In this document: in pieces, positions 2,498 through 16,779 of the stretch
How the letters are laid out: each line of letters opens with the position of its first letter
Position numbering within the stretch: the first letter of the stretch is position 1
NCBI GenBank assembly: GCA_030536655.1
Contig: JAUNPN010000011.1
Coordinates: 1 to 40,863, forward strand
Direction of reading: 5' to 3'
Source: a bacterium
GTDB taxonomy: Bacteria > Bacillota > Clostridia > UBA1381
Length of the DNA: 40,863 nucleotides
The notes under the pieces: model-generated
What the model was told of the DNA's origin: nothing
What the model saw: only the letters and a program-made list of their open reading frames with translations
Databases searched by the model: none
Position numbers and translations under genes: made by a program

Positions 2498-2692
2498 TTA
2501 TCTATTATATACGATGATAAGAGAAAATGCAAGCCTAAATACAAAATTTATATAAAAAATATGTATGTCGGAGTCCTTGTCGGACTCCTCGGAATTATTA
2601 AATTCCTCTTTACTCTTATACTTAATCAGAAGCTCCGCAATAACAACGGAACAACGAATAAAGTCTTTGTTAAGCATTAATTCCTTGTTCAT
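2498..2692 (-). CDS. Small hypothetical protein coupled to the relaxase gene
   Basis: This is a 64-residue ORF whose ATG overlaps the relaxase stop codon (ATGA), which suggests translational coupling. The N-terminal half (MNKELMLNKDFIRCSVVIAE) is amphipathic. The middle is acidic (NNSEESDKDSD) and the C-terminus is hydrophobic (FVFRLAFSLIIVYNR). I do not recognise the family. Its place between relaxase and recombinase suggests a small accessory protein of the element, but expression and function are unknown. The AT-rich tail could also be a chance extension of a shorter protein. Confidence 0.45.
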   Translation of the reverse strand: MNKELMLNKDFIRCSVVIAELLIKYKSKEEFNNSEESDKDSDIHIFYINFVFRLAFSLIIVYNR

Positions 2693-3516
2693 AGGCGTTC
2701 CTCGACTTTCCGAACCGCAGGCGGCTCTCTTTTGTACTCCATAAGCACCTCCGGCGGTATCCGCCCGATAAGTTCTGTCGCGGCGGCGTAATCTCGTTCA
2801 AGCTGTGCGATTTCAAGTTTACGTAAAAGGCTCTCCTTTGACTTGTCAGAAAGAGCCTTATTTTTCTTTGAGAGTTCCGTATTTTCGGCTTCCAATTCCT
2901 TAAACGCGGATTGATACCGCTTTATGTCTCCGCGCATTTTCTCCGCTGCGGGAATGAATTTATCAAGAACCTTTGCAATATCGCCAATCCGTGATTTCTT
3001 GTTCAATGGATTGATGCCGCCGATAAGCGTTTCAAGTTTTTCTCTCTGCTTGTTAAGGTGTGCCATTTCCTTGAACACTCTTGGCGGGATATGATCACGT
3101 CCGGTTTTTGATGCACTCTCGCCGCGTTCCAAATCCGGATATTTCTTTACCATGTGCTTCCAAAATTCATCCTGCCACCATGTCAGTTTTTTCTTGTTTC
3201 CGACAATATCTTTCGCCGACAGTCTGCCGTCCTCGGTGATCGGGATAAAACAAAGGTGCATATGCGGCGTTTTCTCGTCCATATGCACCACGGCAGAGAT
3301 TATTGTGCTTTCGTTTTGATGTGCCTTGATAAATTCAAGGGCATAGCTGAAATACTCATTTACTTCGGCTCGTTTTTTGCCCTCGAAAAACTCCGGGCTT
3401 GCGGTAATGAGGGCTTCAACCACCCGAACACTGTCGGAGCGCGTACGGCAGCCTGCGGCGGCTATCTGCTGTTCAGCTTCCGCGCGGTATTTACGCTTTG
3501 AGAATGATAGTGACAC
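2689..3516 (-). CDS. MobV-type relaxase (plasmid recombination/mobilisation protein), N-terminally truncated
   Basis: Relaxases nick DNA at an origin of transfer and pilot the strand into a recipient. The segment VVHMDEKTPHMHLCFIPI (about residues 77-94) is the MobV/Pre metal-binding motif HxDExxPHxH. It is preceded by RSDSVRVVEALITASPEFF and followed by a charged coiled coil (about 165-250). The visible product of 275 residues starts at a GTG with a weak ribosome site. Family members usually carry a further 50-90 N-terminal residues with the first conserved motif. The frame stays open upstream, but the added residues do not look like a relaxase and run into the divergent regulator gene. The N-terminus therefore seems to have been lost or replaced, and mobilisation activity is doubtful. 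Confidence 0.8.
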   Translation of the reverse strand: MSLSFSKRKYRAEAEQQIAAAGCRTRSDSVRVVEALITASPEFFEGKKRAEVNEYFSYALEFIKAHQNESTIISAVVHMDEKTPHMHLCFIPITEDGRLSAKDIVGNKKKLTWWQDEFWKHMVKKYPDLERGESASKTGRDHIPPRVFKEMAHLNKQREKLETLIGGINPLNKKSRIGDIAKVLDKFIPAAEKMRGDIKRYQSAFKELEAENTELSKKNKALSDKSKESLLRKLEIAQLERDYAAATELIGRIPPEVLMEYKREPPAVRKVEERL

Positions 3517-5575: not shown

Positions 5576-6748
5576 CTATTTTACTGTAGCTATATAAAGG
5601 TTTTCCTTATCGACAAATAGCCGAACAGGTTTATTATATAATTCATTCACAGTATCAATATTCTCTATAAACGGTCTGATTGAATTGCTTTGATGTTCAA
5701 TTAAAGCACCCATTTGCTTTTTAAGTTTTTCATCGCTTATTTTTTCTAATTTACCGCCTGCAGCAATAAGCGCTTCATCAGCCTGACCTTTGATTATGAC
5801 CGGTATTTTTTCTAAGAATTTTCCGACCGCAGTGTTTGCTTTGGCAATTCCCTTTAATACTGATGACTGAACCGAAGTTGATGAATATCCTTCGATTTCG
5901 TTATAGCATTTCGTATATAGCTCTCTGTATTTCAAGGAATAATCGGCTAATTTTACAGAAATGCCCGACAGATAACAGGCACCGTAATTTTCCAAAAGCA
6001 CTACTTCCAAGAAAGATGAGAAGCCCAATAGATACAACGCAAGCTGATAGTCCTTGAATTGGTCTTGCACAGCTTGAAGCTGTCTGTTTACCGTTTGGTC
6101 GCTGTGAATAAAAGATTTTTTATTGACCTTTGCGATAATCTGCTCACGGTAGAAAGCTATTTTCTTTTCCGCTTCCTGCCTTATGTCAAGAACCTTAATA
6201 TGGTTACTGTTCTTAAACATTGCATTATTCCAGTTGTACTTGTAGTTGTTGAACACATCAAACAAAAAATTCAGATCGCCTTTTAGTTCCGCTTTCTCTT
6301 TTTGTATAAGAAAATCCATCATCTCTTGCTGCATATCCTGAATTGCACTGAGTTTCTTGTCAATATTAGCCAACACCGCCGCCATAAACAGCATTGTCGG
6401 GTCAAAGGCAATAGGGGTCATCTGCGCCTGTCCGCCTCCGACCATACCGGTAGGAGTCTGCAATGAGCCGATGTAGTTCTTTGTTCCTTTCATTTGAAAC
6501 ATTGTTTTCCCTGCGGTATTGACATAGTATATTCCGCTTCCGCCGGCTGCTGTCTGAACCGCTGCAGCAAGCGGTTGAAATGCGGTCCCGTATGCCGCAA
6601 GCCGTGAAAGCGGTAACGGTGTGTAGTTTGAAATACCAACCTCCGACTCCTGCAACATAGGGCATAGAGATGTGTCATTCATCATTTGCAGTATTTCATT
6701 ATCCCTATTGTTATGTACGCTGTTGTTAGTACTATTAATTTTACTCAT
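5576..6748 (-). CDS. Hypothetical protein, 390 residues, with a hydrophobic central helix
   Basis: I do not recognise the family. The start at 6748 follows AGAGGATAAACC. Residues 1-60 are polar and Asn-rich. About 55-110 contain small and glycine-rich stretches (LAAAVQTAAGGSGIYYVNTA, TGMVGGGQAQM). About 112-130 form an apolar helix (FDPTMLFMAAVLANI), followed by long charged helices (about 130-240), an aromatic segment (LALYLLGFSSFLEVVLL, about 245-265) and a basic, Ala/Lys-rich C-terminus. There is no signal peptide. The long helices flanking an apolar stretch resemble the layout of membrane-active helical proteins, but that is inference. The gene stands alone between two gene-free structured regions, downstream of the defence operon on the same strand, and may be part of the element's cargo. 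Confidence 0.75.
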   Translation of the reverse strand: MSKINSTNNSVHNNRDNEILQMMNDTSLCPMLQESEVGISNYTPLPLSRLAAYGTAFQPLAAAVQTAAGGSGIYYVNTAGKTMFQMKGTKNYIGSLQTPTGMVGGGQAQMTPIAFDPTMLFMAAVLANIDKKLSAIQDMQQEMMDFLIQKEKAELKGDLNFLFDVFNNYKYNWNNAMFKNSNHIKVLDIRQEAEKKIAFYREQIIAKVNKKSFIHSDQTVNRQLQAVQDQFKDYQLALYLLGFSSFLEVVLLENYGACYLSGISVKLADYSLKYRELYTKCYNEIEGYSSTSVQSSVLKGIAKANTAVGKFLEKIPVIIKGQADEALIAAGGKLEKISDEKLKKQMGALIEHQSNSIRPFIENIDTVNELYNKPVRLFVDKENLYIATVK

Positions 6749-7050
6749 GGTTTATCCTCTTTCTATACTGAATTTGAACGGTAAGCATCCTTAACAGTGC
6801 TTGAAAACGACGCGAATGTTGCTGTAACCTAAGCGCAGATACACTCCGCCGTATGGGCGGCGGGTTCCATTTTGGAATTTCAGCGGGAATTATAATCTTT
6901 CGCTGAAATTCTAAGGAGCTAACTCCCACCTGCGCTTACTTGAAATCTGTCGCAAGCTTAGCAGGAGCATTACTCCTATTTAAACGCTTTTAAACTAACC
7001 CTATGTTTTCAATTGAAATAGTACACAAAGTATAACCTGTATTAAAAGGT
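6749..7050 (-). ncRNA. Structured leader upstream of the 390-residue gene, possible four-way junction
   Basis: This 302-bp interval has no gene. Nested inverted repeats fit a closed multibranch fold: an outer stem TAAGCGCAG/CTGCGCTTA (6830-6838 with 6930-6938), enclosing CCGCCG/CGGCGG (6846-6851 with 6858-6863), GAATTTCAGCG/CGCTGAAATTC (6875-6885 with 6901-6911, perfect 11 bp) and GGAG/CTCC (6915-6918 with 6923-6926). A further hairpin AGGAG/CTCCT lies at 6963-6977 and repeats the GGAGT..GCTCC theme. On the minus strand this precedes the ribosome site of the 390-residue gene by about 70 bases. It could be a regulatory leader, a free RNA, or an operator array. No known RNA family was recognised. 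Confidence 0.45.
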
Positions 7051-8800
7051 TTAATCGGCACTCCATCTTGATTCAAACTCATCATTAGACATTTTGAGCC
7101 CATTATTCAATTTATCAAGCATTTCCTTGCCGCCCGGCATCATTCTTGCTGACATTAAGTATTGCTTTACAGCAGTACGGATATCCCGCAGGGATGCTTT
7201 TGCCTTAGTCCAATTCGGAGGACTGAATACTTTATTATTTTGATTAGCATCATCAAGGGCAATTTCAAATCCCATATTCAAGCACTGCCCTGCAAGCTCA
7301 ATAACTGTGTCAAGCAAATCGTTATCCTTTAGTTTTTGCATCGCAACCGCTGGATTCGGAACAAGATCCTGCATTTTATTTATTTCGCAGAACAGAACCG
7401 AAACCGCAAAAAGATGGTGGTAAGGAGCATAGGCCTTAAGAGCTATCAAAGCCTCGTTCAATCCGAGCGGATTATCATTGCCCCAGTTTTTATAAACCTC
7501 TTTGTACAAGTCAGAAAGAGCTTGAATCTTTTCAGAGCTATACTCCCTGTGGAACAACTGCTCGAAACATTTATCGAATATTCTGCTCTCACTATAGGAA
7601 ATGGTAGGCCTCTGAGAATGCCAAGCGATCAGCTGCTTTCCGAGTGACGTCAAGTCAACAATATGAGCTGTGTTGTACTTGACCAGGTCAGCATTCTCTC
7701 CACGTTTCGTAATAAAGTATCCATCTGTAAAGTGTTGTTCGTAAGCCTTCTTCATTGCCAGAACATACTTTTCATTGCTCCGCAGATCACGAGCCTTTAC
7801 AGCGCTCTGGGAGTTCGTGCAGGTGCTGATTTCATCTGCACGCTCTGCATTGCTGATTTCATAGAATCGGAACATTATATAAGCGTCACTGACATTACGG
7901 ACAGATTCACTACAGTTGAAAATTGTGCTCAGAGACTGGCAGCCATTTACGACATTCAATTCCTTTACACTCATGGTTCCGTTGGCAATCTTGATAGACG
8001 AACATATTGCTGTTATGCCGTTGTGTAGGAAGAAAAACTCCTCCGGATTGTTCCTCAATGTGCGTGCGATTCCCTTATTAATCTTGTTTCCGGTACCAAG
8101 CGACTGACGCACATTTCTCCGGAAAAGCGTCCCGTCCTTGATTCCGGGAATCTTTATGCACTCCTTCAGCGGAATTGCCGCAATAACCGCTCTGGTAGCG
8201 CCGATCTGCATCTCCATATACTTCCCTTGCTCGATGGAAAACTCATAATTGATATAAGGACGATTGCGATTCAGCGCCTCATCATACCGTGCCTGAAGCA
8301 TCCCATTGTCAACAAGTACAAGGTTTGCGCTCAACGTATCGCTTTCCGCAAGCTCAGCCTGAAAAGCAGCCAAATCGGACTTTGCAGAATCCGTTAAACC
8401 AGATGTAGTAATCAGTTCAAAACAAACCTCGTAGTCATCCTCCAAGGCTGTGGCAATTTCGTTGATTTTTGCCTGCAGTTTTTCATTAGCTGCCTCCTGT
8501 AACTTCGCAAGATTCTTAATTTGAATCCACGACGATGTGACCTCACGAAGAGGCTCCGCATCTACAGTTTCTCCCTTGTAAAACTTGCCTTGAATAATGT
8601 ATATGGTTGAAGATTGGTCATCAATATAAACAGCATCAATCTGCTTATCACCGGCTCCATCGGTAATGCAAGCCTTGGCCTCAAAAGTATCAAGGTTATG
8701 TATGTTACGCAGATACCAAAGCGACAAACCTCTGTCCGTCGTTAGGATAGTTCTTTACATAGTATTCCTGTGCTATGTCCTTTTTAATCTTCTCGTACAT
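7051..8800 (-). pseudogene. AIPR-family abortive-infection protein, frame broken near the N-terminus
   Basis: AIPR (abortive infection phage resistance) proteins accompany restriction-modification genes; their mechanism is poorly known. Family features are visible: YLRNIHNL, ITDGAGDKQIDAVYIDD, IIQGKFYKG, then FFLHNGITAICSSI and VVNGCQSLSTIF (a conserved N-G-C-Q core). The best start is the ATG at 8800, with AAGGAG 7 bases upstream and 11 bases after the Res stop. From there the frame encodes MYEKIKKDIAQEYYVKNYP and ends 31 codons later. The long frame (7051-8727) has only a TTG start without a ribosome site. Removing one base from the run AAA at 8718-8720 joins QRFVA to WYLRNIHNL and gives a 582-residue protein, close to what the family expects. 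I read this as a one-base insertion, either a real mutation or a sequence error. Confidence 0.85.
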
Positions 8801-8811
8801 GGTGCTTCTCC

Positions 8812-11688
8812 TTACTCAATAACTCCGTCCGTATCAAAGATATGGTCGAGCTCGTCTGTGTTTATTGCATAAGAGACCTTGTCTCGGATTGCTGTCCGGT
8901 TCATATCGAGTCTCTTGAACTGGTTCTTTCCTGCCGCGTCCTTGCTCATGCGAATAAGCTGAATCCTGCCAACACCCGGATTTTGGCGTGCATATTCTGC
9001 AAGACCCTTAGCCTTGCCAAGATTATCTTTGAAATCAGGACTATGTGGCTCAAGAATATCAATCACATATCCAACACGCTCGTCTTTACGGACTATAATA
9101 AAATCCGGATATGTAGGTTTAATTTCTCCATCGATTTCATAGGGGATACAAAGTGCCCACGATCCTCTGGAGGGATTGCGAATCCAGCAGACAAAATCAG
9201 AACGCTTTTCTTCTGTCTCAATAAGATTGGCCTCCCAACCATTTAATTTCAACTTTGCGGTTCCTGTCGCTTCGCTGACAAATAGATGGTCTCGATATTC
9301 CTTACCGCCTGTTTCATGAGGAACCTGTATAGTTTCCGGCAAACGGAAATTATGTTTGCTGACAGGATCACCGTCAGAAACAATACTGTCGTATTCCTTA
9401 CGGATTTTTTCTGAATCGATAGTTGCGATGTATCTTCTGTAATCATCATTCAAGCCATGGAAACGATCCTCAGCATAGGAATGCAGGCGATTCATGCATT
9501 CGTCATCAGCAACAAAGAGAATGACATCGACCTTAAAAGCTGTCAGGTCAGCCATATCCATGTATTTGTTTCCATAAGCCATGCCAATGCCTTCTCTACC
9601 GAGCTTAATGTCTGCAACCTGGAACTGACGCTCGATATCGGTATCAGTTGTCGTGAACATATCGTGCACTGAATAATTGTCCACAGTCTCCCCAAAGGCA
9701 TCAAAAATCTGAGTTGCCAGCTTGAACTGCTTGACCTGCTGAACAAGGTCATCATACTTACCAGCTACCTTCAGACTCTCCACATAACTGTGAATCATCT
9801 CAACAATCTCGTCCTGCACCTCGCGGATCGCTTTCCGATGCAGTTTGGACATTGTAAGCAGATGAGCCATTCTGTACAGTGATTTCAGATAATCATTGAT
9901 ACGAAGAGCCCTGACATTATAAGAAAGCAGGCCTGCATCGTTTATAAATTTCATAACGGCTTCGCGGTCAAACAGATCTTCCTCTTCAGAGACCTCCGGT
10001 TGATTTTCCGGCGCACCGGACATATTGCCGCCACCGGAGGACGGTGTTGCTTCCGGTGTCTGAGTCGTGGCAGCTGTACTCGGCGCTGACGCTGTATTTT
10101 CAGCTCCCGGCTGCTGGTCATGTTCGGTTGATTCAGAGAAATTTGTCTGCTCTACGACGCTTTGAGGTTGAGCCGTAAAACTATCAGCGCCGTCTGTCTC
10201 TGTAGGCACACTTGCTATCTGTGGATCAGATGTCTGCCCAGAGAAAACATCAAACAAGGTCATCTGTCCCTGAATTGGCTGTTCCTCTTTTTTCTTTTTC
10301 GGCCTAACAGTCAATGTTTCAAAATGTCTGCCGGAAAGAGACTCTCCATAAATATCGGTTGGAATGTCCCCGCCTTCTGTGCTCTGAAGGGCTTCTACAA
10401 CGTCCTTGACAGTGTTTTCATTAAAGTACGGCAAATAGAGATGGACATCGTTCAAGACATCGTCCACCTGAATATGCATCTGCATAGGCGTCCGGATCAT
10501 TCGACCGAGAAGCTGCGCAATGTATGTAGCATCACTGGCATGCTTGAAAGACATCATAGTTTCTGCACGCGGACAATCCCATCCCGTGGATAGATTCTCT
10601 TTGAATAACACCACACGAATATTTCTGTCTTCTGCAATATTGGATGGCTCCTCATAACGAACTTCGAGTCCGTTAACTGTCAACGTCGCAGTTGTACCAC
10701 CAAAGGTATGTACCACTTGACCACTCTCCAGCTTGAAGCCTGTCCGCTCCTTGATCTTGGAAATGCAGTCGTCAAGATTTGTATCTGTCAGAGCGTCTCC
10801 GGTCCCATTCAAAACCTGAATGATCAGTATCGGATTTACATAGGCATAATGCTGCTCAAAGCAATACTGCGTCCAGTGCTCCCATTTTTCCTTCCAGTCA
10901 TCTGCAGCAGCCTGCAGAATGGCCATATCGTTATTAACTGTGCCTTCTTCCGGATAAGTGATAACGATCCTATCTTTCAAAAGTCCGGAGGCGCGCACCT
11001 CATCAGTAGTAACGATTGATTTGTGGATTGTGGAAGACGTGCCCTCAACCAGAGCATTGAATCTCTGAGTGGTAGCAGACATGCCGATGACTACCGGCAT
11101 AGGCGGGATACCGTCTGAATCGCTGCCTTTAATGAACTTCTGCATAATAGTCGTGGCTTTGCTTGCTTCACGGCCCTGCATGCCACGGTGCGCCTCGTCG
11201 ATAATGAAATACAGCCGGTCGCTTTTTTCGCGGACGGTATTAGCAAGTGTCTGCCATATAGTATAAGTGCGGCCATCGCCGTTTTTTGTGAGTTTAGACG
11301 TGACTGACAGTTTCTGTGTATTCAGGAAATAGACGTGTCCGTCCTCGAACATTTCCTTGTCGAATGAGTCCTCTGAAACCGTGACGCACTGCGAAAGGCG
11401 GATCTTGTCAGCCTTGGAATCAATCTTCTGTTTTGATTGCTCATTCAGTTGAGGTGAATCCGAAAGCCAGATGATAATGGCATCCGGTTGCTCCACATAT
11501 TGCTCATCACCGAAGAGAATGTCCTCAATCAGTGCAGACATAATGATGGTTTTTCCTGCTCCAGTCGGCGCAGTGAAGGAAACCACCTGCGGCGCGTGTG
11601 TTCTATGATAGCTGCCCATTGCCTCCGCAGTCTTCATGCGAATATCAGCAAGTGCTCTTTTCTGGAATGGGAATAATTCTACTTTCAT
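8812..11688 (-). CDS. res: Type III-like restriction subunit Res (DEAD/DEAH helicase with C-terminal nuclease motif)
   Basis: This 958-residue protein would translocate on DNA using ATP and cleave unmodified DNA together with Mod. Superfamily 2 motifs are in order: Walker A PTGAGKT (41-47), DEAH (164-167), SAT (204-206), STGWDCPRAE (367-376) and QLLGRMIRTP (392-401). Residues about 463-585 are a low-complexity linker rich in Pro, Ser, Thr and Gln, with QMTLFD at 475-480. The C-terminus holds a PD-(D/E)xK-like site, PDFIIVR then DILEPH (D862, D877, E880), in which the usual Lys is His. The start at 11688 has a GGAGGTAA ribosome site that includes the Mod stop codon, so translation is coupled. 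AIPR begins 11 bases downstream. The gene is intact. Confidence 0.93.
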   Translation of the reverse strand: MKVELFPFQKRALADIRMKTAEAMGSYHRTHAPQVVSFTAPTGAGKTIIMSALIEDILFGDEQYVEQPDAIIIWLSDSPQLNEQSKQKIDSKADKIRLSQCVTVSEDSFDKEMFEDGHVYFLNTQKLSVTSKLTKNGDGRTYTIWQTLANTVREKSDRLYFIIDEAHRGMQGREASKATTIMQKFIKGSDSDGIPPMPVVIGMSATTQRFNALVEGTSSTIHKSIVTTDEVRASGLLKDRIVITYPEEGTVNNDMAILQAAADDWKEKWEHWTQYCFEQHYAYVNPILIIQVLNGTGDALTDTNLDDCISKIKERTGFKLESGQVVHTFGGTTATLTVNGLEVRYEEPSNIAEDRNIRVVLFKENLSTGWDCPRAETMMSFKHASDATYIAQLLGRMIRTPMQMHIQVDDVLNDVHLYLPYFNENTVKDVVEALQSTEGGDIPTDIYGESLSGRHFETLTVRPKKKKEEQPIQGQMTLFDVFSGQTSDPQIASVPTETDGADSFTAQPQSVVEQTNFSESTEHDQQPGAENTASAPSTAATTQTPEATPSSGGGNMSGAPENQPEVSEEEDLFDREAVMKFINDAGLLSYNVRALRINDYLKSLYRMAHLLTMSKLHRKAIREVQDEIVEMIHSYVESLKVAGKYDDLVQQVKQFKLATQIFDAFGETVDNYSVHDMFTTTDTDIERQFQVADIKLGREGIGMAYGNKYMDMADLTAFKVDVILFVADDECMNRLHSYAEDRFHGLNDDYRRYIATIDSEKIRKEYDSIVSDGDPVSKHNFRLPETIQVPHETGGKEYRDHLFVSEATGTAKLKLNGWEANLIETEEKRSDFVCWIRNPSRGSWALCIPYEIDGEIKPTYPDFIIVRKDERVGYVIDILEPHSPDFKDNLGKAKGLAEYARQNPGVGRIQLIRMSKDAAGKNQFKRLDMNRTAIRDKVSYAINTDELDHIFDTDGVIE

Positions 11689-11690
11689 GG

Positions 11691-13820
11691 TTACCTCCCT
11701 GTATTGATTCTGAAATTATCCAGATAATCTCTGTAAAGCTGATAGCAGGCCTTACCCTCATACGTTCGGATCATTGTTCGATAAGCCGACTCTGAATCCG
11801 TCACAATAAACACGGTCTGAATTTCCGGATGCTGATCTAATTGCGTATCAAACTCGGAATAATATATCTCGTCGATAAGGATTGCCATCTTATTCTCTGG
11901 CAAGATAAGCATATCTGGAAGCGTGTCACTTTCAAGAGTCGGATATTTTCCAATAGCTCCGGCCTTCATCCAAAGCACCGGAAGTAACTCCTTGAACTGT
12001 CTGCCAAGGGCAACCGAGGTTTTGTCAAGAAAGCTCAGTTTGAAGAAGGCGGCGTTTGTCGGGAAGCCAGCAGACATAGGCCTTTCTATACCGAGATAAT
12101 CACCTTTTAGTGGCACATTATTCGTGTCATGGCCTTCAATTGTACATACAGTTCGTGGCCATGTGATATATCGGGCAATTCCGAATCTCTCCCATTCTTC
12201 GTCTCCCGGATGTAATCCTTTCTTTGTTAGTGATTTAATTTCAGTTTCGGAAACCTCATTATTAGTAACCATAACACATCTACGGTGCCCACCATCTTCA
12301 ATATTCAGAAGATTTAAAGCATGTAAGGTTGTTCCTGAACCAGAAAAGAAGTCAACTACAAGAGCATCCTTCTTATTTCCTACATAAAAGCGTAATGTAT
12401 CCTCAACAGCATATAGCGACTTAGGAAACGGGAAGTTTCTTTTCGGAATAATCTTATCAATGAGATTCGTTCCATACGTACTGGCATCGTGCCAATCCCG
12501 TACCCACATTGTTTTTGGTTCCCTATCCTGTTCAGCATCCTCATTCCACTCTAATATCAGAGAGCCGTCTGAATCCCTTCCTGTTGCGATTAGAATTCCA
12601 TCACGCAGCTGTTCTTTTTGCTTCTTTTTTAGAAAGACAACTGCCCACTGATCTCTTTTCTTGTTATAGGCACCTAATTTTGCAATACCCTGCTCCAAAT
12701 AGGCTCGTAATGTTTCATGACCGAGTTGCCATCTGCCCTCGCTATCATCAGTTCTAATTGGCCACACCGCTTTTAATCCCGCAGCAGGCGGTCTTTTTTC
12801 CACATCATGTCTATCCGTTTCAAGTGGAAGCGGTTCTCCGACGAATTCTATTTTTTTCTTTTTCACGTCAATCCAGACTGGATAAAACAAATTCGGCGAC
12901 TCTCTCCGCGAAGAACCTTTTGAGCCTCGCCGCAACATACTATTCCATATAGTATCCGTCTTCGATTCCTTAGCGTCAGGATTACTATTATCCGTAACGT
13001 CTAACATGGAATACTTTGACTTTTGTATGTTCATACTGCCAAACTGTAACAAGAATAAATATTCATCACATCTGGCGAACTGGCCAACTCTGGTAGATGC
13101 CTTTTTGTTAATTCGAGAGGTTATCATTTGCATACGTGCTTCTGGAAAAATTTCCTCCAGTAAGCAACCCAAGTGTAAATATTCCTTTTCATCAATAGTT
13201 ACAATAAGGACAGAATCATTCGGATTCAACAGTTTCTTCGCAATTTTAAGGCGTTTTTCCATCATGGAAAGCCACTTGCTGTGACGATAAGCATCAGAGC
13301 TATCCACATAGTCGTTATTGTATTTCCAGTCCTTTGCACCAGTGTTATACGGCGGATCGATGTAGATGCAATCCACCTTCTCCGCATACAGATACTCCAG
13401 AAGCTGCAGCGCATGGTAATTGTCTGCCTCGATCAGCGTATGCCAAAGGCCGCTGTCCGGAGCGTTCTCCACAATATCAATCGGTTTCAGTGTCGGATAG
13501 ATCGGCTCACCAAATTCAGCTACAGCAACGATCTCATCCAATTTGAAAGTTTTCTGCTCATGCGTTTCGCGGCGATCACAGAGTACCTCATCGTCGTCAA
13601 TTTTTATGACAGTATATATATCACTTACATATCCGGTCTTCAGTGCGACCTTTGAGCCGGCACGAATCGGTACATCATAAAGCGGTGTGCATTCCGGTAA
13701 GTGCTCTTCAAACACCAATCCGAACTTCTTCTGTTTGAGCAATTTATTTGTCTCCTGCAGTATTCTCTCCTTAAGCGCAGGATCGTCAATCTGCTGGATC
13801 AGGTCTTGTAACAATGCCAT
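11691..13820 (-). CDS. mod: Type III-like DNA methyltransferase (Mod), beta class
   Basis: This 709-residue adenine or cytosine-N4 DNA methyltransferase is the modification and recognition partner of Res. The catalytic DPPYNTG motif is at 155-161 and the SAM-binding FFSGSGTT at about 491-498. That order (catalytic motif first) defines the beta class used by type III enzymes. The region in between (about 230-470) should hold the target recognition domain. About 110 residues precede the usual Mod core and form a small beta-rich N-terminal extension (IRAGSKVALKTGYVSDIYTV). The ATG at 13820 is preceded by GAGGTGG, 9 bases after the radical SAM stop. The recognition sequence cannot be read from the protein. 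Confidence 0.94.
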   Translation of the reverse strand: MALLQDLIQQIDDPALKERILQETNKLLKQKKFGLVFEEHLPECTPLYDVPIRAGSKVALKTGYVSDIYTVIKIDDDEVLCDRRETHEQKTFKLDEIVAVAEFGEPIYPTLKPIDIVENAPDSGLWHTLIEADNYHALQLLEYLYAEKVDCIYIDPPYNTGAKDWKYNNDYVDSSDAYRHSKWLSMMEKRLKIAKKLLNPNDSVLIVTIDEKEYLHLGCLLEEIFPEARMQMITSRINKKASTRVGQFARCDEYLFLLQFGSMNIQKSKYSMLDVTDNSNPDAKESKTDTIWNSMLRRGSKGSSRRESPNLFYPVWIDVKKKKIEFVGEPLPLETDRHDVEKRPPAAGLKAVWPIRTDDSEGRWQLGHETLRAYLEQGIAKLGAYNKKRDQWAVVFLKKKQKEQLRDGILIATGRDSDGSLILEWNEDAEQDREPKTMWVRDWHDASTYGTNLIDKIIPKRNFPFPKSLYAVEDTLRFYVGNKKDALVVDFFSGSGTTLHALNLLNIEDGGHRRCVMVTNNEVSETEIKSLTKKGLHPGDEEWERFGIARYITWPRTVCTIEGHDTNNVPLKGDYLGIERPMSAGFPTNAAFFKLSFLDKTSVALGRQFKELLPVLWMKAGAIGKYPTLESDTLPDMLILPENKMAILIDEIYYSEFDTQLDQHPEIQTVFIVTDSESAYRTMIRTYEGKACYQLYRDYLDNFRINTGR

Positions 13821-13829
13821 AATGCCACC

Positions 13830-14594
13830 TCATTCTTCCGTTATCGTTTTTTCTTTGATATGATAATCAATTCCATGCTCTTGGCAGAATTTGATCACCT
13901 CTGCCGCACTCTCATTGTAAAAATGCTTATGTCCTTCATAGGCATTCGCTACCTTGCTGTAGTTTGTCCTCCCAAAAACAATCCAGTCTACAAAAGATAC
14001 AGCTTCCAATATTTCATGTAGATCCTGTTCGACCATATTCGGCGTTGGGTAAGGCTCAATGCTCACCCACGTCCTGCAACCTGCATCATGTAATGCTCTC
14101 AAGGCTGCCAATCGTTCCGCACAAGGAACAGCTCCCGGCTCCATTTGCTCTCGGTAAGTCTCATCAAGCGTAATCAATGTGATGCCATATTCATTCTTCT
14201 TGGAAAGCTCTGCAAGCTCTATTGGCAACAGACCTTTTGTAAGTGTTGTGCATTTTATACCTGCGTCATTCAGTTTTCGGATAGCCGCTATGCTCATAGT
14301 AGCGACTTCCGGATATCCATTCATGAATGGATCTGTTGTAAAGCAAAGGTGTACCGACTGAATTTTATCTCTCAGCTTAGGTATTTCTTTGTTGAGCAAT
14401 TCAAGCGTATTTGAGACCAGCACCGGCTCAAGCCAAGTGTCATAGTCTTTTATTTTGCCGAACCGCTTTTTCATCAGAAATGCATAACATGGATATCGAC
14501 ATCCATGCGCACATCCCTGCACATGATTCATTGTGTAGTCACCATACTCTACGCCTGTTTGGTAAAGCATGGATTTTCGTGTTATAGTTTTCAA
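13830..14594 (-). CDS. Radical SAM protein with a CxxxCxxxC motif, partner of TcmP
   Basis: The protein has 254 residues. The iron-sulfur segment GCAHGCRYPCYAF places cysteines at 28, 32 and 36. The spacing CxxxCxxxC differs from the standard radical SAM CxxxCxxC by one residue and matches the three-Cys motif for which the neighbouring TcmP family is named. The following sequence keeps a partial TIM-barrel pattern (VHLCFTTDPF, CTTLTKGLL, YGITLITLDE, WVSIEPYP, DWIVFGRTN), like spore photolyase-related and DUF5131-type proteins. The start is probably the TTG at 14594, since GGAGG lies 11 bases upstream and no ATG is available. It lies 18 bases after TcmP1 and 9 before Mod, so it is co-transcribed with both. 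It may modify a nucleic acid or nucleotide; the substrate is unknown. Confidence 0.85.
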   Translation of the reverse strand: MKTITRKSMLYQTGVEYGDYTMNHVQGCAHGCRYPCYAFLMKKRFGKIKDYDTWLEPVLVSNTLELLNKEIPKLRDKIQSVHLCFTTDPFMNGYPEVATMSIAAIRKLNDAGIKCTTLTKGLLPIELAELSKKNEYGITLITLDETYREQMEPGAVPCAERLAALRALHDAGCRTWVSIEPYPTPNMVEQDLHEILEAVSFVDWIVFGRTNYSKVANAYEGHKHFYNESAAEVIKFCQEHGIDYHIKEKTITEE

Positions 14595-14612
14595 GCCTAT
14601 TTCATCCTCCGC

Positions 14613-15476
14613 CTATTTGTTCTTTAAAATATGATCTGCTATTCGTAGAGCGAGTCCTTGCGCTTTTGGGCTCTCGCTCGAAATGGCAAAGCAGAATAGG
14701 AACATCGGCGAGTTCCTGCTATTTCTGAAAATCCGAGCGTGTTTGGAAACACAGGGAAAGATAGTCTTGAGTCGGGAGAGGATGTATTCTTTTATATGAT
14801 CCGGATTAGCGTCCTTAATTTTGCGCTCACCATCGTTCTGACCAGATTCATCCGGAAACAGATCGAAAAGTGTCATCTGTGGATCTTTTTTGTAAAACTC
14901 CTCACGCCATCCGGTATCTCCGAGTAAGCGGTCTATGCAGTCCTCCCATTTTTCATATTTCCCATTCTTCGGCAACATTCGTTCAAGAGCAGAAAACGGA
15001 AACAGATACCAAACGTCAATAGACTTCGTTTTTGCTACTGTTTCAAGCGTGGTCCAATTGACCTGAGTTGCATATGGATCTAAAAACAGAAGCCCTCTAT
15101 TATACCGCCAGTCCTGCTCACGAATGATCTGCTCAAGTTTCTCATTGGCGTCACCACAGTAAACGCTGACGTTCCATTTCAATTCTGGAAACTCTGATTT
15201 CACCATTGCCCATAGTTCTGCCGCTTTGTCCTCATCTTTTTCGATAAAGAAGTAATGGTCAAATTTTTTATCCGCCGACAATGCTCTCTTGGCAGAACCC
15301 ACAAGATACTGCCCACCATCACTGGTTTCTATCTCACCTGTTCCAGCGAAGGCGTCAATATAAATCTTCTTGAACTTCTTGTTTTGTAAAGCGATAAGAT
15401 ACGCATCCAAATAGCTCGCGAAGATATTCAGTTTCTCCTCTGTCCAGTTACCGCCGAATTTCTGTGACGCCGTCAT
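14613..15476 (-). CDS. tcmP: Three-Cys-motif partner protein TcmP (copy 1, next to the radical SAM gene)
   Basis: TcmP proteins occur beside three-Cys-motif radical SAM proteins; their role is not established. This 287-residue copy has methyltransferase-like features: IYIDAFAGTGEI (38-49, like the SAM-binding DxFxGxG), FFIEKDED (76-83, acidic end of a second strand), CGDAN (107-111) and LLFLDPYA (129-136, like a D-P-x-Y catalytic loop). The N-terminus WTEEKLNIFASYLDAYLIAL is typical of the family. PQMTLFDLF at 199-207 resembles a sliding-clamp binding peptide and recurs in Res. The ATG at 15476 has AGGA 5 bases upstream. It is the second gene of the operon. Confidence 0.85.
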   Translation of the reverse strand: MTASQKFGGNWTEEKLNIFASYLDAYLIALQNKKFKKIYIDAFAGTGEIETSDGGQYLVGSAKRALSADKKFDHYFFIEKDEDKAAELWAMVKSEFPELKWNVSVYCGDANEKLEQIIREQDWRYNRGLLFLDPYATQVNWTTLETVAKTKSIDVWYLFPFSALERMLPKNGKYEKWEDCIDRLLGDTGWREEFYKKDPQMTLFDLFPDESGQNDGERKIKDANPDHIKEYILSRLKTIFPCVSKHARIFRNSRNSPMFLFCFAISSESPKAQGLALRIADHILKNK

Positions 15477-15510
15477 TAATTCCTACACCTCTTCTATATA
15501 AAACTCAGTC

Positions 15511-16635
15511 TCATGAAGAGAAAGAGATTACTGTTTCCTTATTCCCAGTTATATCATTTACAATCTGCTCAATCTTTGCTCCAAAGCAACTTGTTAGATC
15601 GTGTTTTATTTCATTCCGAAATCCCTCAGATGGAAAGATTGGATGGTTGTCCAGAAGTTTCCACATTTCATCCAGAGGCACCTGCTTATGACCTTTCAAA
15701 GACCGACTCAAATACCTTGCGATATCAATCACATGAAGACATGACTCATCCTCGTCTATCGTAATCTCGCCAAAAAAGTCAAAGGACAGCTGCCGGTTTT
15801 CAGCTGATCGTTTGGTAGAGGACTGTGCACCGAATACTTTCCACGCACTTTTCTTACATAACTTGAAACCTTCTTTATTGCTTGTGCAATGGATCAGGTT
15901 ATATACAAGTGTGTTCTGTGTGTTGTAGAAAGGAACTGCAGAAACGTAATATCTGCGAGAACCCTTGAGGGAATCAATAATTTCCTCCACCCTTGCTTCA
16001 TAAGCTGATTTATCGCTTCCGTAAGGCACCAGCTTCTCAAAATCCTCCAGATAGGTATTCTCATACTTTGCCTTCGTCGTCTTTCTCTTGGTGCTCGTAA
16101 TTGCTCGAACTGGATCAGAAACCATATGATTTATCATGACCTCTCCCCAGTTACGGAAAAACGGTAGAAGCGCCTCCCAATCAATGTTTGCATCGTATGG
16201 ATCATAGAGCAGAAAATAATGCAGGTGCCCAGTCCCATACAACTGTGGTCCGATAGTCCGGAGAAGTTCATGTGCATCGCTGCATGATGTGACGATCTTG
16301 AAATTTCTCTCATCCAGCGGGAGGTGCTTTTTGAGTTCATCCACTCTGGCCTTGTCTTTATCGTTCAGATAAATATGAATGTTTTTATCTGTATAGGTCC
16401 TTGCTGCTTCTTGAAGTGCCTCGGATACTCGTACTGCTGTGCCTTTCACCGATTGTCCGGCACCGTCTGTATACATTCCGCTGTTACACATGCAATCGAT
16501 AAAGATCAGCCCGTTGCAGGATTCATTCAGCAATAATTTCTGTGCCCACGATTTTATATATTCCTCAATCAGTTCAAACTTTTTAATCGTATGAGGACTG
16601 GCCTTATCGATTACATTTTTCCTTCTACCGGGCAT
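15511..16635 (-). CDS. Divergent TcmP-like protein (copy 2, first gene of the defence operon)
   Basis: The reading frame is open from 16743, but the ATG at 16635 is the better start: AAAGGAG lies 11 bases upstream, and the 374-residue product then begins MPGRRKNVIDKASPHTIKKF, matching where TcmP proteins normally begin. Core motifs parallel copy 1: LIFIDCMCNSGMY (two cysteines where copy 1 has AFAGTG), IYLNDKDKARVDEL, CSDAHEL and FLLYDPYDANIDW. The C-terminal part is longer than in copy 1 and contains NRQLSFDFFGE, another clamp-like peptide. The two copies are too different to be a recent duplication and may act as a heterodimer; that is inference. Annotation as TcmP is likely but less sure than for copy 1. 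Confidence 0.75.
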   Translation of the reverse strand: MPGRRKNVIDKASPHTIKKFELIEEYIKSWAQKLLLNESCNGLIFIDCMCNSGMYTDGAGQSVKGTAVRVSEALQEAARTYTDKNIHIYLNDKDKARVDELKKHLPLDERNFKIVTSCSDAHELLRTIGPQLYGTGHLHYFLLYDPYDANIDWEALLPFFRNWGEVMINHMVSDPVRAITSTKRKTTKAKYENTYLEDFEKLVPYGSDKSAYEARVEEIIDSLKGSRRYYVSAVPFYNTQNTLVYNLIHCTSNKEGFKLCKKSAWKVFGAQSSTKRSAENRQLSFDFFGEITIDEDESCLHVIDIARYLSRSLKGHKQVPLDEMWKLLDNHPIFPSEGFRNEIKHDLTSCFGAKIEQIVNDITGNKETVISFSS

Positions 16636-16779
16636 CTTATCGCTCACTCCTTTAGTCTCGTCATTTTCCTCTGTAGGAATTAGTTCCATAATATTGCCAA
16701 TATCATAGTTCGGTATTTTACATATCTTTATAAGGACTTCCATACTTACGATTTCTCGAGAGAGTTTTGTAACGGAAGC

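Follow-up and report, generated by a model that had tools for sequence, protein, structure and literature searches.

The folded stretch at positions 6823–6984 (+ strand) of the analyzed window, the whole 40,863-nucleotide stretch of DNA, is one copy of a dispersed mobile repeat and not a switch for a neighboring gene. Typical copies are ~175 bp long and gene-less, and together they form a dispersed multicopy family with sharp ends, a covarying structure, insertion adjacent to TATAA and an orientation linked to GC skew. It is fairly probable that the repeat is non-autonomous and moves, most likely, as single-stranded DNA with a Y1 transposase acting in trans, and that the window holds an old copy, probably immobile; the transposase type and the link to replication we infer. 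The repeat accounts for a recurring structured signal that is easily mistaken for a regulatory RNA, and adds a high-copy modular family for which a target is defined, empty sites are known and a strand bias is seen.

The folded interval and its repeat family

The window copy, 162 bp long including a 5-base target remnant at its left, was delimited by a covariance model and by alignment with 40 other copies. It is slightly wider than the four-way junction that a sequence-only reading had described within 6820–6985. The closing stem P1 pairs TAAGCGCAG (6830–6838) with CTGCGCTTA (6930–6938) over 9 bp and encloses three hairpins in a span of 109 nt: the G+C-rich P2 (6846–6863), the long P3 (6872–6914), whose perfect 11-bp core pairs GAATTTCAGCG with CGCTGAAATTC (6875–6885/6901–6911), and P4, GGAG(CTAA)CTCC (6915–6926). 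A further hairpin, AGGAG(CATTA)CTCCT, lies near the right end at 6963–6977. All these parts are on the + strand and are supported by the fold and by covariation, P1 by compensatory changes between genera. The features named in the earlier reading were all confirmed: the closing stem with its three hairpins in exactly 109 bases, the 11-bp stem and the additional GGAG/CTCC hairpin.

That reading had also held the nesting to be hard to explain by chance, and the folding energies agree: they are 5 to 6 standard deviations lower than those of dinucleotide shuffles, both as RNA (z=-4.98, 166 nt) and as DNA (z=-5.76, 162 nt), with 0 of 200 shuffles as low in either case. For the + strand, the lowest-energy fold is the four-way junction; the − strand, which is sense for the gene of the 390-residue protein (5576–6748), prefers another fold, and the closing stem appears in its centroid only. 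A search of the folded stretch and the repeat against Rfam gave nothing above the curated gathering threshold, and a tRNA search of the folded stretch gave no hit.

In a DNA search of 70 genomes of the host's family, 14 genomes matched, with matches confined to approximately 6817–6994 of the window, and several had at least 10 copies. A covariance model built from 41 copies, against which the window copy scores 118.8 bits (E 3.8e-27), detected the repeat in 25 of the 95 genomes searched from the order, all belonging to the host's family. A deeper search of the 14 carriers gave 133, 116, 56, 39 and 29 matches for the richest five, counts that include weak matches. Among 391 genomes sampled from the class, 18 outside the host's family matched too, six of them above 150 bits. 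Many genomes in the survey are incomplete MAGs, and genes were called from ORF length alone. The copies adjoin many unrelated genes. In the genome of the window itself, one copy is convincing; a weak second match (L109) lacks the family ends and was excluded from the count for that reason. The plasmid and phage records searched held no relatives, and IMG/VR yielded one contig only, a 94-kb viral contig with a full-length copy (L070:11235–11407, − strand) that is a possible interspecies vehicle. The open-access papers searched contained no description of such a repeat, and the end sequence TTGCTCCGATTTAAA was absent from them.

When 41 copies are aligned with MAFFT, 90.8% of alignment cells pair and 17 pairs have changed on both sides; double-change cells number 53 where 17.5 would be expected, a value reached in 0 of 500 shuffles. 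Double changes were seen in 41 of 48 pairs of a 102-copy alignment, which is biased towards the structure because it was fitted to the model. P1 varies by genus with its pairing kept (GCGCAG/CTGCGC, GCAAAG/CTTTGC, GTGCAG/CTGCAC, CCGCAG/TGCGG), and covariation extends to a right-end hairpin whose 5' arm has a 2-nt bulge. Such compensatory changes are what the sequence-only reading had proposed to look for in support of the fold, and both alignments contain them in strength. The pattern indicates that the structure of the repeat is kept under selection. On the + strand, G-U pairs outnumber A-C combinations by 214 to 136, an excess too modest for these pairs to decide between RNA and single-stranded DNA.

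The folded interval sits in a 302-bp gap between the minus-strand ORFs 5576–6748 and 7051–8727, and had been taken for part of the leader of the 390-residue gene. The interval and the fold exist, but the + strand of the repeat is antisense to that gene. Nor does the suggested recurrent link with the 390-residue family hold: among carriers of the repeat in the host's family, relatives of the protein were found in the window's own genome and in G027 only, the latter 33% identical and on another contig than the listed copies of G027, and the repeat is absent from eight loci that encode relatives. A cis-regulatory leader was rejected in view of the antisense orientation and the association that is not conserved. 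Because those eight loci are copy-free and G027 is the sole other carrier with a relative, the readings as riboswitch, guide, decoy or toxin-inhibiting RNA are likewise unsupported; the genes next to the copies are unrelated, and the insertion sites are of a mobile type. The 390-residue protein had no family match in Pfam or PADLOC. Relatives with 58–85% identity occur in several other genomes (L024–L029), with differing neighbors.

Ends, insertion sites and orientation

The aligned copies have sharp boundaries, TATAA|CC at the left and GATTTAAA at the right, beyond which the sequence is unrelated, and no inverted repeats were found at the ends. The first five bases of 146 copies read TATAA in 98 and AATAA in 20. 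Copy length ranges from 35 to 250 bp, with 98-bp and 237–247-bp forms among the variants. What remains in copies of 76 bp is both ends plus two hairpins, a simple P1 and the right-end one, and copies of 35 and 41 bp are end-to-end deletions; the four-way junction is an interior module, since the 76-bp and shorter copies do without it. Tandem copies in G031 (L048, G031:C196) have a period of ~171 bp and exact end-to-end joins, and their joint, GATTTAAA|CCTAACC, has the same boundaries as elsewhere.

The target remnant of the window copy (6823–6827) reads TGTAA, and its right end (6977–6984) reads TATTTAAA, for which the family consensus is GATTTAAA. Alignment, hairpin covariation and DNA folding place a deletion of ~16 nt at 6959–6960, which took away the loop of the right-end hairpin together with its 5' arm; most other copies in the alignment retain this hairpin. 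Because the target reads TGTAA and the hairpin lacks one arm, the window copy is probably an old, immobile relic, its inactivity being suggested by the half-lost hairpin. It lies between two minus-strand genes, which is the minority, antisense arrangement.

At three loci where occupied sites could be set against empty ones, the insertion lies immediately 3' of TATAA. In the gap between phoU and a response-regulator gene, the occupied site of G025 reads GGTGTATAA, followed by the element (TCTAAGC...GATTTAAA) and TATGTG, and the empty sites of four close species, with flanks 92–97% identical, read GGTGTATAATATG or GGTGTATAATGTG. In G025 the element entered a −10 box (TTGAAA-17-TATAAT) and restores it with its own first base. 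A histidine-kinase/ABC-transporter locus is occupied in G046 and empty in three genomes, the closest of which reads TTTATTATAA|ATTTTTT, and a third locus is occupied in G054 and empty in G055 at TATAA|A. No target duplication is visible at the three loci, 1–2 A being ambiguous at the latter two, and a hidden duplication would be at most 2 bp. Some copies lie directly downstream of good promoters; general targeting of −10 boxes was rejected, since −35 boxes were not enriched at the appropriate distance, and G025 is the one clear case. In the phoU gap, species without the element have other insertions a few bases further on (L227–L230), bounded by the inverted ends AAATTATGATTTA and TAAATCATAATTT and with further G+C-rich repeats inside; these apparently belong to a second, unrelated repeat family.

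Of the copies between co-directional genes, 57 were sense and 18 antisense (p=7e-6; 128 copies, with the element sequence left in place); a smaller count on 54 copies gave 22 versus 14, which was not significant. The direction of the element agreed with the regional GC skew in 31 of 40 cases (p=0.0007), and also where neighbors are divergent or convergent, so that gene direction is no explanation (22 of 28, p=0.004). The regional gene balance does not share the orientation bias of the element. Of 24 pairs of successive copies on one contig, 19 were alike (p=0.003), as were 15 of the 20 more than 3 kb apart. GC skew served as a proxy for replication direction. The class presumably belongs to the Firmicutes, most of which have the leading-strand sequence on their G-rich strand; the lagging-strand template has this same sequence. 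The orientation of IS200/IS605 elements follows replication because they use, and favor, the lagging-strand template (PMC5371812).

Candidate mobilizers and alternative readings

In the proposed mechanism, a modular, hairpin-rich, gene-less element would insert directly 3' of TATAA. An IS200/IS605-type (HUH, Y1) transposase supplied in trans would recognize the top strand, folded and exposed as part of the lagging-strand template, and would paste the single-stranded element beside TATAA. Members of the IS200/IS605 family integrate on the 3' side of a tetra- or pentanucleotide; they have no inverted repeats and do not duplicate the target (PMC7290912). Like them and their ends-only derivatives, the PATEs, the repeat inserts 3' of a fixed short AT-rich motif, has neither inverted repeats nor a clear target duplication, and has hairpins near its ends that may correspond to their subterminal ones; its orientation tracks GC skew, as a proxy, where theirs is tied to the lagging-strand template. 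Unlike them, it has a covarying four-way-junction interior, a very high copy number and a class-wide spread, and no transposase gene or parent element with its ends was found. IS608 has a guide sequence between target and left hairpin; none is obvious in the repeat, whose left hairpin lies directly against the target, with the outer A-U pairs of P1 overlapping the AA of TATAA. The bulged hairpin at the right end is clear from DNA folding and covariation. No autonomous element with matching ends was present among the sampled Y1 loci, and because these were only a sample, the repeat is filed as working like IS200/IS605 and not as a proven member. Neither G046 (98% complete, 39 matches) nor G031 had a Y1 gene. 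Resident IS200 elements were rejected as the mobilizer, having different hairpins and ends and being located after T-runs. The responsible transposase may have died out, may be present only in passing on mobile DNA, or may be of a different kind. Around one IS200, 2,087 bp are 100% identical between G056 and G064 (L134, L200), which belong to different genera, reflecting either a recent transfer or a binning error.

The helper could also be a single-copy chromosomal gene and not an IS, which we consider unlikely but worth weighing: the family would be a REP/REPIN- or BOX-like repeat, now mostly inactive, that was moved by a domesticated RAYT (TnpAREP) or an unknown enzyme. The two genomes with the most copies, G056 and G054, contain RAYT-like genes (~250–280 aa), as do G055 and G048. 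The repeat shares with REPs and REPINs a high-copy, intergenic, palindromic and gene-less nature, and its genus-specific stems may resemble REPs paired with their own RAYT. However, no copy lies within ~1.5 kb of three RAYT-like genes (3-kb loci), although REPs usually flank RAYTs, and the lack of a Y1 gene in G046 and G031 weighs against this helper too. The repeat is also far longer, up to 250 bp, than REPs (21–65 nt; PMC6006769), and differs from them in having a TATAA target, not a GTAG-type foot, and no visible RAYT link. One RAYT-like gene (~260–280 aa, weak Y1 match; L135/L136) has the same context in G054 and G055 and is perhaps domesticated. BOX elements of Streptococcus pneumoniae span 67–637 bp and are 60.8% leading-strand (PMC3049150). 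They too are modular dispersed repeats of variable length with a predicted structured RNA, the leading-strand excess being that of BOX; their sequence and hosts differ as far as seen, and the repeat, unlike BOX, has a defined target, empty sites and boundaries. Because a genome with 39 copies has no Y1 transposase, we also give some small weight to class-wide structured elements that spread by an undescribed mechanism, with the four-way junction, as single-stranded DNA or RNA, forming part of the mobile machine; such an element could enter and rebuild a −10 box and become the 5' end of the transcript.

That the repeat is, or became, a functional structured RNA kept for the host, as a 5' leader or a small RNA, is very unlikely. 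The covarying branched fold, the G-U excess on the + strand, the predominance of sense copies where the flanking genes are co-directional, the copies just past good promoters and the one that restores the −10 box it entered would all fit such an RNA, but the interior is dispensable (as in the 35-, 41- and 76-bp copies), copy number varies hugely, neighbors are unrelated and many copies are antisense. Moreover, the orientation bias stays where local genes cannot account for it, and promoters at the right spacing are not generally enriched. It is barely credible that the repeat is left over from the omega RNA of a transposon with TnpB or IscB: the right end is structured and the TATAA on the left is TAM-like, but TnpB (PF07282) was absent from nine carrier genomes, with positive controls, and HEARO was excluded because there was no Rfam match. 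A MITE of a DDE transposon would likewise be short and multicopy with an AT-rich target, and is just as hard to credit, since inverted repeats are absent and the empty sites read TATAAA, contrary to the prediction of a TA duplication. Unlike the compact REPs, the repeat has a covarying branched interior, which makes both the purpose of the interior and the moving enzyme directly testable.

A sister family and the neighboring genes

A sister repeat family (L091, L218, L220, L221) has P2/P3 hairpins in common with the repeat, a different right half and an end near CTTATTGAA, and it occurs in several families of the class. In the window, the repeat copy is followed by a minus-strand defense-type cluster (7051–16743) with an AIPR/AbiU-like gene (7051–8727), type III Res (8812–11688) and Mod (11691–13820), a radical SAM gene (13830–14594) and two PDC-M41/M30-like proteins (14613–16743). 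The cluster adjoins a serine recombinase-like ORF (761–2458) and a mobilization-protein-like ORF (2689–3516).
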